64,000 nucleotides of DNA from Cliona cf. orientalis (taxonomy: Eukaryota > Porifera > Demospongiae > Clionaida > Clionaidae), in assembly GCA_963930775.1 (NCBI GenBank), contig OZ005704.1, positions 4,092,001 to 4,156,000 on the forward strand, read 5' to 3'. Every line of letters begins with the position of its first letter. Positions within the stretch are counted from its first letter, which is position 1. The translations under genes and the position numbers were made by a program. Below the pieces are notes generated by a model. That model was given only the letters and a program-made list of their open reading frames with translations. It made no database searches and was not told the DNA's origin. This document shows positions 40,456-49,690 of this stretch, piece after piece.

Positions 40456-40792
40456 ATGTACACAAATATGTATCTTAAGCCCCGTTTACACGTACCAAAC
40501 CAGTTTAAACGAGGAAGTTGGGGTTAAATATTGCAATACGCGAAAGTTTCCAATGCGCGATCGTTTGCGGACTGCGGGTATTTAAGGTGCGTGCCCAGGG
40601 CACGACCTTTGACCTCGCCGCCAAGATTCAAACTCAGCGAGTTTGCCATGGCTATGTAGCCATTCTCTTAACACTGTGAAGCCCTCACAATGCACTTTAC
40701 ATAGCATGCGCGGTACCATACAAGCGCGCCAAACAATAGAGATTTGAACAGCTGCTGTCTGACAGTTTCATAACAAAAAAACCTAGCAAATA

Positions 40793-41548
40793 ATGGCTTC
40801 ACAAGCAAAACTCAAGGTGAGCTAGCTGAATATCAACAAAACATAATAAATAATAACTAAATATCCATTAGCTTGAAGTATACTACAAGGAACAGCCTCC
40901 AAATGACTTCTTGGAGGAATTCAGAGTCTTGGTAGCCTCCTATCCAGGGATAGAGCTCTCTTCCACAAGGTGCATCCTTGACAGCTGCCAGTCTACCAGT
41001 TCCTCCAGTTCTTCTGCTACTGGTCAAGTCACTCTCCCACAGCAGAAAAGTCCAAGAAAGGTTATCCTGCAGTTACTAAATATTCCCACCAATATTTCCA
41101 GAGCTCTATACATTAATACAGTGGTAACTTATCTTCGTAGGTCCATGCGGGTACAATCCTCCAGAGCTCAATGGACCCAATGCCTGTCCGTACTGCCACC
41201 TCTCCCGTTGTGTAGTGAACCGACCACCCAGCTGGGTGAGGGGCTCCTCGGCACCCAGCCTCGCAAACAATTCCAAACGCTACGCTCTGTACAGGAGATT
41301 TTGGACCTTCCTGAATCAGCTGGGAGTGTGGAACCATCCCGAATATGCACACTATAAATCCACCAAGACAAGTGTACTGGACACCAGGGATGTGCTGCCT
41401 GCATGTGTAGTAAGGGTAAGTATAGGTAGTCTACAACCATAGCAACTTACAATAACAATAAGTGTGATCTTTTTAGGAGGTGCGTGGTCGGTTTCCCAAT
41501 CCACCCGGAGTCCCTTACACCGACTTCCAACCATCATCACGCTTCTAA
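40793..41548 (+). CDS. Transposon-borne protein with P2X7 C-terminal (ballast)-like domain
   Basis: My spliced model is 40,793-40,816, 40,872-41,022, 41,141-41,415 and 41,477-41,548, giving 173 residues in frame with GT-AG introns; the second intron's donor (41,023) is the least certain. After MASQAKLK and LEVYYKEQPPNDFLEEFRVL there is a serine-rich patch, then a Cys/His cluster (PNACPYCHLSRCVV) and RYALYRRFWTFLNQL, VLPACVVREVRGRFPNP and YTDFQ. The order RY-YR-F ... LP-C---R-RFP---G-Y--F is that of the P2X7 receptor intracellular domain, which binds zinc and guanine nucleotide in the receptor. No membrane segments are present, so this is not a channel. Its role beside a transposase is unknown; DNA- or zinc-binding accessory function is only a guess. 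Confidence 0.65.
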
Positions 41549-41627
41549 TATATAATCACACTCATATGTACACGTACTATTAGGCAGTTTCACACACTTA
41601 CATGTTGCTATATACAGTGTAGTTCAT

Positions 41628-44420
41628 TTATTCTTGCTGTTCCACCTCATCAAACTCATCCTCCGGTAAACCTTCCCCATCAGCCAATATATCATCCTCC
41701 TCATCACCCACATCCACATCACTGTCGTTCTCATCCACTTCCCTATAAGATTATTTATGAAAAGAAAAACACTGGGGTATACACTATGTCACTCTCTCTC
41801 CACCTTCAATATAACTTCAGGTTAAGATTCACTTAGAAGGGGGAGAAACCGAGGGAGCAAGGGCGAGATACATGCAAACATGCATAATACATGTACATGT
41901 ACATGCAAGTGTATGTGAACATGTGCATACACACAATAATACTGTACATGAAGTACCACACCATTATCCACCATACAAGATGCACTCACTTACCTGAGGT
42001 CGGTAACCTTCCAACGAGTGTATGTCCTCCAGATATCACCAACAAAATTAAAAGTTTTCTTGACTAGCACCTTCATGGGAGTTCTTCGGTCGGGTCTCCT
42101 CATATCCAAAACAAAATGCTCACTTGTGCTGGCTCTTTGTACATTCTCATTCTAGATATTAGTGTGCCGGGGAGGGGGGGGGGGTGAGAGTCAACATGTG
42201 TGAACACAATAAATTGTGAGCTTTATTATACCCAATCCATAACAGCAAGGTTCATTCTCATCTTGAAGGTGGTGGAGCCAAAATGAATACGTTTGGGAAG
42301 GTAAGTGAGCAACTGATGGTTGAACGACTCGATCCAGAAAGTATCCCGACACTAATGATAGATTAACTTGCTCAACACGTCGTAAAATCTTTCAAAAATA
42401 CTTACCCGACAGTCTGATTCCGCATTCTTGTAAATGAGAGTGGCCTTGAGTGCCTTCTCATATGCCTGTATTGCAGCAGGATCGGTGAGTCGCAACTTTG
42501 AGGGACTGTACCCAGAGCGTCTACAGAAGGATTCTTCGTGGCACTGGGAGTGCTTATTCTTTGTATAGCAAAAAGAATTGTGTAAAGTCATACATAAGAA
42601 GGGTACTCTATGCTTCTGACTCACCTGGTAGTGGCTAATAATGTTTAAAATGCTCTCCCTAAGCTTCATTGGAGACTGGGCACAGTTTTTCATGCAGTAG
42701 TACAAATGAACTTTTGTACTTTTGCCTAATTACATGTACATGCATGTATCATAATGGTGGAGATTCATGCGTTGGTAACTTACATTTGTCCGATAACTCT
42801 ACAAACCAAGATTTTCCTTCTGTCTTTTTGGTACCACATGAGATCTTCCTCATGCCCTTTGTTACATTCTTGGTACCTAATTAAAGCACACTGATCACCA
42901 TCACAAGTATTGGGAATCAGTAACTGTACCATGCCACGTGTCGTATGAGTTCAGGAGATGTAAATCCTCAGTGATGTAATTCTTGACTGTTGCTGCATTA
43001 TCATGCGCTACTTCCACAACCTTCAGATCTGCACACATGTATAGATCTAATTCAATAATCAATGTTCACATAAATACGTGAAATATACAATGTACCACCT
43101 TGTTCAAGGACTTGAGGCAGTACTGCTTTGGTGGCCTCAAGTTCCCTTGTTTGAGTGATGGCATGCTCCTTTCTGGATACTGTTGCACAGCCAAGAATTC
43201 GTTTGGTGCTATCATAATAATAAAAATACAATAACGTATGTGTACATGTAATGTATCATGTTCTATACACCTATTCACAACAACAATTGAACACATAATT
43301 ACCTTCCAGACAAGCAGGGGACAGTGGTATGGAAGGCATTGGATGTCGAGTCGTGTCGAGCATCAGTAATAACCCACTGTTGAGAGATACAATAAATTAA
43401 TTTGTAGCAGGGTTACAAATGTGCACATACATGTACCTCACCACTAGCAGCATAATTTGGCAATGCTTTCACTTCTGTGATAGCTTTCATCATTGATAAC
43501 TTGGCACAGGTGTTCACTACTTCCAAGTACCCACCACTTTTGTAGACTAGCAAATAGCAAAGAGTCAATCGACCATCACCCCATTTCTTTTGCAAACTCA
43601 CCCGAATTGATATACCATGGCCCCAGTGTGCCCAAGTTTGCATGAGTGGAAAAATGGATGTACTGGCTCGGCAGAATACCAGCACAGGTGAATGAATGCA
43701 CGATCCTGAAAATATTTCAGTACCTAGCTCTTGTAATGGAAAGTAATGGATACTTACTTCTGGTTAATAAGGTAGCGTCCTCCAAGTGTTCGTGAACTGG
43801 CCCACCGTTGCTTCTGTTTACACTGCTTACACTGAAACTCGACACGAAGGACATGTCCTCTCTGAGGTACACGCATAAACACCAACTAAATATTTGATAA
43901 GTTCACTTGAATGGGCCATTCACACCTGAACAGTCTTGATCATCTTCCGTGCACTAGCTTGGCACTGACATGGTTGTGTCAGCCCAGCGCAAAGATCCTC
44001 AAACGTCTTGCGCTCACAAACAAACAATGATTGGGCTTCATCATTGCCTTCATCACCGGGTACAAAGAATCCTAAGCACAATAGTTAGTTTGTTGTTTAT
44101 GACTAAGCTATTACGTGAATCTAATACACACCTGAGTTTTCCAGCATTATCATAGATCCTGTGGGGACTGTCTGGCTTCGAAACTGATCTCCAGTGCACG
44201 TGGTAGCAGGTGGAGGAGTGGCTTCAGCCAAATCCAATAGAGAGCTAAGTAGCTCGCGACTGTCCAGCGGCGGGGAGCCTCTGGGAGCGAGTCTCTGTTT
44301 AGCGCTCTCCACCCTCGACAAGAACGACTTCTTGCTATCTTCACTGGCGAAGTTCAGCTCCATAGTGTACCGAAATCCTAGTCTCGCGCGCTTCTTTCTC
44401 TGCTCGTTCAAAGTAGCCAT
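41628..44420 (-). CDS. Kolobok-type DDE transposase, 14 exons, 599 codons
   Basis: Minus-strand exons (high to low): 44,420-44,132; 44,071-43,926; 43,885-43,758; 43,705-43,602; 43,546-43,437; 43,376-43,303; 43,208-43,099; 43,028-42,930; 42,876-42,784; 42,725-42,625; 42,558-42,406; 42,351-42,232; 42,151-41,994; 41,742-41,628. All introns are GT-AG and the sum is 1,800 nt without an internal stop in my reading. The N-terminus is basic (EQRKKRARLGFRY); Cys pairs (CQCQ, QCKQCKQK) precede FTCAGILPSQYIHF. Probable catalytic residues are D in VITDARHDS, D in VAHDNAATVKNY and E in FWIESFNHQLLTYLPKRIHF; NSYDTWHGTKNVTK and CHEESFCRR are further family blocks. The tail is strongly acidic (DENDSDVDVGDEEDDILADG). 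It could mobilise this element. Alternative: a domesticated relative. Confidence 0.8.
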
Positions 44421-44960
44421 TTTTTTCCTTACAGGTGCCTTCGAAAAGGTGTCTCTGGTTGTCTCGCGCTTTCTTTATATTCGCGCTATGGCGCCAACGC
44501 TGGTTCGCTGTACTGTACTGTGTGTTTGTCATGTGTAAAATAGCTGGCGCCATTACCGGCATGGCAAGATAACTCGCGAATTTTTGTAATACAGCCATAT
44601 TGGCTCATGTGACAGATGTGGTAAAATAAACATTGCTTCCGTCCAGGGCGGGCCCTTTTATACCCCGCCTCCTCGTTTAAACTGAACCGGATTAAATCGC
44701 GTTTACACGCACGTGCTTGACCCAAGTTAAGGTATTCATAGCCCACTACTATGCACGTAACCCACTTCTAACCCACATCAGGATGTGGTTTACAACCTGG
44801 GTCAACTAATTCAGTTTACAAGTGGATTAGCGCATTTACACATAAGCGAGTTAGTTTAACACGGATCCTGACCCGAGTTAAGCCCTACGTGTAAATGGGG
44901 CTTTAGTGTCGGTCAGTAATAATTATTATAAGTACGGATAATTACATATATATATAGACG

Positions 44961-48290: not shown

Positions 48291-48660
48291 TTCAAAATCA
48301 TCCTAGATGTGCTTAAAAAATCCGTGTCTACAGTGTAGCTGAACGAAGAGTCATCACAATGCTCCCAACCATGAATACAAAGAATACCGTATTTATTCAA
48401 ATACTAGCCACGGCTACTATTAATTTCAGCCTTGCTGGAGTGCGGCTACTAATCGAGGGCGGCTTTTATTACTTTGGAGCGACACTTGTAGGTGATATTG
48501 ACACGATAGACTCGTGGACCTTCATCAGCAATAACATAAAATGCACGATGCAGTAGCTTTAAATATGAGTGGTGAGCGGAAGTGGGTTGTGATGTAATGG
48601 TAACTTCCTGATAGATGAAATAAATAAAATAAAAGAGGGAAATTTGAAATGAGTAAATTA

Positions 48661-49262
48661 TTTGTGGATGAACTGTGTCCATGTGTCACTGAGGGTTAGT
48701 CCACAATCGAGGTTGGCATTCTGTGGTGTCTTTTTGATCCAGATTGCTTCTAGCACTCGTCTCTTCCAGTAGTGGGGCTCGTTCTCCATGGTTTCTGCAG
48801 CATCCCAATCAGGTTGGTGATTGTTGTCCCAAGCATGCACAGCAATGCCATTCTTCCGGTTGTTTGTCTTCACTACGTACTTGTGTTCTATTAATCTCTT
48901 CTGTAGAGATCTCCCGGTCTCCCCAATATACACTGCATCACAGTCACGGCATGGGATCTTATACACTATCTCTTTCCTCTTCATGTCTGGAACTCTGGTC
49001 TTCACCTTCATCAATCTTCGTCTCAACGTTTCCTGGGACTTGAAAATGGTTCTTACTCCAATCTTCCTGCATGCTGTCTGGATTTTCTCTGACAGGCCCT
49101 GTATGTAGGGTAGGAAGAGGCTTGCTGGTTTACTGGTGGAGGTGTCTTCTGCTTCAGTTGGTTGTCTGGGTGGTGCACTGAGGACCCGTGAGACCAGTCG
49201 CTTTGGGTACCCATTCTTTACGAAAGTGTTTCTGATGTGGGTTACTTCCTTGTTGTCAACAC
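48661..49262 (-). pseudogene. Penelope GIY-YIG endonuclease with RT C-terminus
   Basis: The frame gives EVTHIRNTFVKNGYPKRLVS (end of RT thumb), LPYIQGLSEKIQTACRKIGV, MKRKEIVYKIPCRDCDAVYI, then GETGRSLQKRLIEHK and GIAVHAWDNNHQPDWD, ending WTQFIHK. VYIGETGRSLQKRLIEHK is the GIY-YIG nuclease motif with conserved Arg, and PC-DC the Cys motif typical of Penelope-type EN. It nicks target DNA for priming. About 200 codons are open and undamaged, but the RT palm is absent in this half, so the protein is 5'-truncated. Confidence 0.88.
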
Positions 49263-49690
49263 ATCTGAGCCACAAAAGCAAGGCACTAGCCTCCGCACCC
49301 TCGTCGCCCACCATGTGGCTCAGATATGTTGACGACACCTTCGTCCTCTGGCCTCATGGCGCCAACCGACTCGAGGAATTCCACTCCCACTTGAATACGC
49401 AACACCCCCAGATCCAATTCACCAAGGAAGAGGAGAAGGACGGCCAGACTAGTTTCTTGGATGTGCTGGTGAAGAGGGAGAACAACTTCTTCAAGACCTC
49501 CGTGTACAGGAAACCTACCCACAGAGATCGGTACACTCACTTCACCTCACACCACCACCCACGAGTGAAGATGGGAACCATCAAATGCCTGATGAGGAGA
49601 GCAGAGAAGGTCTGTGACGACGGGAACAGGGGATAGGAAGTAACCCACATCAGAAACACGTTCGTGAAGAACGGGTACCCAAAGTGACTG
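49263..49690 (+). pseudogene. Penelope reverse transcriptase fragment (YVDD)
   Basis: MWLRYVDDTFVLWPHG carries the intact catalytic YVDD. Next come QIQFTKEEEKDGQTSFLDVL and SVYRKPTHRDRYTHFTSHHH, the motif D/thumb blocks of Penelope RT, then RRAEKVCDDGNRG before a stop. EVTHIRNTFVKNGYPK follows, after which the endonuclease is deleted: at about 49,700 sequence jumps to the stop/3'UTR seen in the opposite half. A 5'-truncated, EN-deleted copy. Confidence 0.88.

Follow-up and report, generated by a model that had tools for sequence, protein, structure and literature searches.

A Kolobok-like transposon of the sponge Cliona cf. orientalis carries a probable divergent relative of KolX and the P2X7 ballast

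The transposon and its target site

The stretch of DNA analysed here, called the window below, comprises 64,000 nucleotides from the sponge Cliona cf. orientalis (contig OZ005704.1, positions 4,092,001 to 4,156,000 of the forward strand), and at 40509..44676 it contains a copy of a Kolobok-like DNA transposon, 4168 bp long, with the ends 5'-ACGAGG...CCTCGT-3'. The element holds two convergent genes, a short one that we call KolX-like and a gene for a DDE transposase. Its limits were set from the ends of other copies and from the rejoined flanks. A TTAA target-site duplication lies on the left (40505..40508) and on the right (44677..44680), and an inverted-repeat search gave imperfect terminal inverted repeats (TIRs) at 40509..40528 on the plus strand and 44657..44676 on the minus strand. 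Other copies start with TTAA/ACGAGG or a close variant and have unrelated sequence upstream, while at the right end the copies L039 and L018 show CCTCGT/TTAA and then unrelated flanks; L019 has the same right end, but there an inverted copy of the end follows. In the 217-Mb genome 32 left ends of this window subfamily were found with at most two mismatches, and none with the reversed pattern as control. The TTAA duplication is that of the Kolobok superfamily, but the termini are 5'-AC...GT-3' and not the 5'-RR...YY-3' of Kolobok elements (PMC9587614).

The transposon sits in a miniature inverted-repeat transposable element (MITE) of about 255 bp, whose pieces are found at 40474..40508 and 44681..44906. 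When the flanks are rejoined with a single TTAA (261 bases), they match at least 39 other places at 94-97%, uninterrupted across the junction; 40 rows of 275 candidates were scored, and one row is the window's own right flank. An outer inverted repeat (40474-40494 and 44886-44906) was tried as the TIR of the element and rejected, because the uninterrupted matches elsewhere make it part of the MITE into which the transposon was inserted. The ends of the MITE are AGCCCCGTTTACACG. An earlier interpretation made from the letters alone, the sequence-only reading, had placed the gene within the TIRs of a Kolobok-type element, and this holds for the TTAA-flanked limits.

The KolX-like gene

The KolX-like gene lies on the plus strand and has four exons. 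Exon 1 (40793..40816, MASQAKLK) shows the same pattern in 11 of the 12 other close copies, and exon 2 (40872..41060) is bounded by splice sites common to the family. The conserved cysteines are in exon 3 (41141..41415), which encodes a C-x2-C-x4-C cluster, KRYALYRRFW and LPACVVR, and exon 4 (41477..41548) encodes EVRGRFPNPPGVPYTDFQPSSRF and the stop; it is joined in the same way in the database proteins P0002, P0068 and P0089. Between 41141 and 41548 the motifs RYALYRRFW, VLPACVVR/EVRGRFPNP and YTDF are encoded in exactly the order that had been reported for a spliced frame of 173 residues. That frame can be reproduced, but it depends on a donor after 41022, whereas the donor common to the family follows 41060, and as the gene of the family it was rejected since exon 2 up to the shared donor measures 190 nt in all 12 other close copies. 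Here it measures 189 nt, and this one missing nucleotide puts the window copy out of frame with exon 3, so that it is a damaged copy. The Cys/His cluster that had been described ahead of these motifs is a cysteine cluster; the histidine that follows it is not general in the family.

The transposase

The transposase gene occupies 41628..44420 on the minus strand with about 14 exons, and carries the motifs TDARHDS, EVAHD, DTWH and IESFNHQ. It was spliced by hand with approximate joins, and exon 4 of the model is in the wrong frame, as relatives show; this same model was used for the Pfam scan, the search for relatives, the linkage counts and the motif alignment. It matches PF20700 (Mutator-like) with E=2.2e-5 and 24 bits, below the cut-off of 26.5, which the relatives P0011, P0012, P0015, P0016 and P0020 exceed. 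By the motifs that the alignment shows (TDARHDS, VAHD, DTWH, ESFNHQ), the DDE residues are present with C/DxxH between the second D and the E. Identity reaches 56% to proteins of Halichondria panicea and 69%, over part of the length, to others, and the relatives that carry a name are all sponge proteins, from H. panicea, Ephydatia muelleri and Amphimedon queenslandica. No THAP family was among the Pfam matches of the window model or of the five relatives listed above; Kolobok transposases usually carry a THAP domain (PMC6004289). No piggyBac family was among the Pfam matches of the window model either, which speaks against a piggyBac-type transposase.

A repeated family linked to the transposase

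Including the window, the genome has 24 distinct loci that code for a protein similar to the KolX-like one, with 66-96% identity, and 45 more distant loci code for related proteins at 32-48% identity (L033-L038, which overlap others, were dropped from the counts). The family profile also matches 92 database proteins, some of them possibly from the same species, and the relative with a name is a predicted gene in H. panicea. A similarity that extends over these three sets is more than chance.

At the 24 close loci a convergent transposase is found in 21 cases, a true left end in 20 and both in 19, although one of the 21, L018, keeps only the first 34 transposase residues and is an internally deleted copy. 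The sequence-only reading had asked whether such stand-alone proteins repeatedly lie beside Kolobok-type transposases, and these counts show that they do. It had also named absence of the gene from other copies as a point that would speak against it, and the gene is not absent: a KolX-like match within 2.6 kb downstream follows 25 of the 32 left ends of the window subfamily and all 19 left ends of a second subfamily. Among the matches listed for the distant loci, at least 30 of the 45 have a convergent transposase, and L042, which is among the remaining 15, has one on inspection.

The left ends of the second subfamily, TTAAACGAG, also begin with 5'-AC and are found at L041 and 18 other places. 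A search of L041 and L054 for TIRs bounded by TTAA found nothing, and the left end came from comparing two copies; the right end was looked for and not found. Two copies from this subfamily lie in unrelated flanks and share 99.86% identity over 698 nt, which is a sign of recent transposition, and the subfamily looks to have been active recently.

The ratio of nonsynonymous to synonymous substitution (dN/dS) in exon 3 is 0.08-0.21 in the seven pairs of 12 that could be computed by a simple counting method, with synonymous distance saturated in the other five and above 1 in four of the seven. These comparisons suggest purifying selection on exon 3.

Relation to the P2X7 ballast

P2RX7_C (PF20478), the Pfam family of the P2X7 ballast, is the top family for the window model (E=0.057, 13.7 bits) and for the database proteins P0089 (E=8.1e-4, 19.8 bits) and P0068 (E=0.028, 14.8 bits), but all three are below the gathering cut-off of 23.5 bits. 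The proposed match to the P2X7 C-terminal profile is thus found as a best family and not at accepted significance. In 20 of the 23 distinct sequences scanned there was no P2RX7_C match at all. A scan of 13 family members gave none, and one of 10 others gave two, both below the cut-off. When the profile of the 13 members was compared with PDB sequences no P2X7 appeared, and the sole match was a superoxide dismutase with E=0.62.

Comparison of profile with profile gave a clearer result. Against canonical KolX the family reached 81.5% with hhalign (80% in global mode), and with trimmed alignments 92.2%, at a score of 46.5, whereas 40 shuffles of the columns never exceeded 18.6. The significant relation is confined to the last 28 residues or so of the window-type protein, and this C-terminal block is related to the ballast; for the N-terminal part the comparison with canonical KolX gave no signal above shuffles. 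The structural comparison with the ballast, which the sequence-only reading had proposed, came out divided: rat P2X7 made up three of the four chains that Foldseek ranked for a model of P0089, and a second model gave no structural match, so that one of two models gave support.

Conservation was counted in 97 family proteins, at each position among the sequences that have a residue there. Of the cysteines, those of C-x2-C-x4-C and of P-x-C are kept in 82/87, 85/88, 84/86 and 81/87, and a fifth in 64/86; in the motif R-x3-Y the R is kept in 86/95 and the Y in 93/94. The window-type family does not have the seven cysteines published for canonical KolX, but four conserved cysteines are predicted to be enough for one zinc.

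Canonical KolX in the same genome

Elsewhere in the genome there are 25 matches to PF20478 above the Pfam cut-off, which are canonical KolX. One of them, L006, matches P2X7 chains at 1.2e-14, and its element (L052/L006/L053, positions 1672159-1677410 of contig C1) was followed to the ends: KolX runs convergently towards a Kolobok transposase, and the two are enclosed by TIRs with AG...CT termini and TTAA flanks. The open frames on either side of this element resemble what we take to be SRCR repeats, and it is perhaps inserted within a gene. Eight canonical copies, L001-L008, lie on contigs C1, C2, C3, C8, C11 and C17; L002, L004 and L005 have seven cysteines, and L001 and L006-L008 have six. 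In this group a cysteine-rich N-terminal region precedes the ballast, which to our eyes presumably resembles a CXC/tesmin-like DNA-binding module, and one of the two genes scanned had a weak CSRNP_N match (E=0.022). A further canonical group, L043-L049, has acidic N-terminal stretches in several members, and its C-terminal block YRxYRFxAYRQ is on a separate open frame, which suggests an intron.

Elsewhere in the window

At 48658-49636 open frames overlap on opposite strands. We take the one on the plus strand to resemble a Penelope-type reverse transcriptase (YVDDTF), and the one on the minus strand presumably has a GIY-YIG-like region (DAVYIGETGRSLQKR).

Discussion

That the tail of the P2X7 receptor has its origin in a transposon has already been concluded in print. 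Kojima and Bao (2022, PMC9587614) traced the ballast to KolX, a protein of Kol0 Kolobok elements, found in sponges as well, and described canonical KolX as having seven cysteines that hold two zinc ions. They also mention a few piggyBac families in which a KolX-like C-terminal part lacks most of the cysteines. The suggestion of the sequence-only reading, that the ballast is an old transposon module from which the receptor tail could derive, was therefore published earlier, and it is supported here in part, by the canonical KolX between TIRs that matches P2X7; the protein of the window itself is divergent. No description of this divergent branch was found in a literature search of open-access main texts.

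As in Kol0 KolX, a short accessory protein accompanies a Kolobok-type transposase, the flanks are TTAA and the C-terminal block is present, but the family has four conserved cysteines against the published seven, falls below the Pfam cut-off and has AC..GT ends in place of RR..YY. With the P2X7 ballast it has in common the C-terminal block, P-x-C ... [IV]R-x2-[YF]P ... Y-x-x-[FY], and the R-x3-Y motif, but there is no P2X channel and no second cysteine cluster, and the score is 13.7 against 23.5 bits. It is also of the same stand-alone ballast type, without membrane helices, as the ZCD or Nanor-like proteins, which Rump et al. (2020, PMC7016195) report across Metazoa with sponges included. In the sections consulted they are treated as host genes, and the stem "transpos" is absent from the text, whereas the gene of the window sits inside transposon ends. 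The piggyBac-encoded KolX-like proteins likewise go with TTAA targets, but the transposase here matches PF20700 and has no piggyBac match in Pfam.

The explanation that we favour, to which we would give a probability of roughly 80% as a whole, is that the gene is a divergent and reduced branch of the family to which canonical KolX and the P2X7 ballast also belong. The element is a TTAA-targeting, Kolobok-like cut-and-paste transposon with two convergent genes, one for the DDE transposase and one for a short KolX-like protein, in which the C-terminal block remains together with four cysteines that could bind a single zinc, and the second cysteine cluster is absent. KolX would be a small nuclear accessory protein, stabilised by zinc and needed by the transposase, and may stabilise the synaptic complex by binding either the transposase or the ends of the element; canonical KolX would later have been taken up by P2X7 as its tail, as published. 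Since the KolX-like gene is kept together with the transposase in the subfamilies examined, it likely serves transposition. The likeliest way is by binding to the ends or to the transposase, which we hold to be about an even chance. One canonical group has a cysteine-rich module in front of the ballast, and this points to DNA if its apparent likeness is a guide.

It could be argued that a single copy picked up a fragment of a host gene by chance, or that the gene is an artefact of splicing. The window copy is indeed out of frame, the donor first proposed for it is not common to the family, and downstream of seven of the 32 left ends no match was found. But dozens of loci, spread over several subfamilies, have the gene in convergent orientation to the transposase and with the low dN/dS of a selected protein, and it has a relative in a predicted gene of H. 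panicea; for the family the idea is refuted by the linkage at all left ends of the second subfamily together with the selection, and we regard it as highly improbable. Convergence is harder to dismiss, that is, that the protein is not homologous to KolX and P2X7 and that two short zinc-binding blocks have become alike. The significant part is so short, so few of the scanned sequences match P2RX7_C, and one structure model found nothing. Set against this are the hhalign result with shuffles far below it, the same position and orientation beside the same class of transposase as in canonical KolX, the R-x3-Y-R-x-[FY] and P-x-C that are common to the canonical copies, and the rat P2X7 chains ranked for P0089. 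We consider convergence unlikely.

A different question is what the protein does. Instead of a transposition factor it might be, as the main alternative, a protein that regulates how the host responds or how the element itself is expressed, such as an anti-silencing protein or a repressor. The cysteine-rich N-terminal module of one canonical group would fit such a role, by the CXC/tesmin likeness that we assume and by the CSRNP_N match in one of two genes. A role in transcription is also a hypothesis that Rump et al. cite for Nanor (PMC7016195). Retention together with the transposase fits a regulator and a transposition factor alike, and we find a regulator the less probable of the two, though considerably less remote than convergence.

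Conclusions

The sponge data are in line with the connection already published between the P2X7 ballast and a transposon gene. The divergent branch reveals the residues that are retained almost without exception, namely the C-terminal block, R-x3-Y and the four cysteines, and these form the conserved core; the second zinc site looks dispensable, which gives a lead on the function of the ballast before it became part of the receptor. More tentatively, and in our view with somewhat less than even odds, sponges may have a separate lineage of TTAA transposons, with ACGAG... termini, a transposase without THAP and a KolX reduced to a form with a single zinc. If that is true, KolX would predate the split of the Kolobok lineages and not be a speciality of Kol0, and the functional core that it has in common with the tail of P2X7 would be the C-terminal block rather than the dinuclear zinc cluster.
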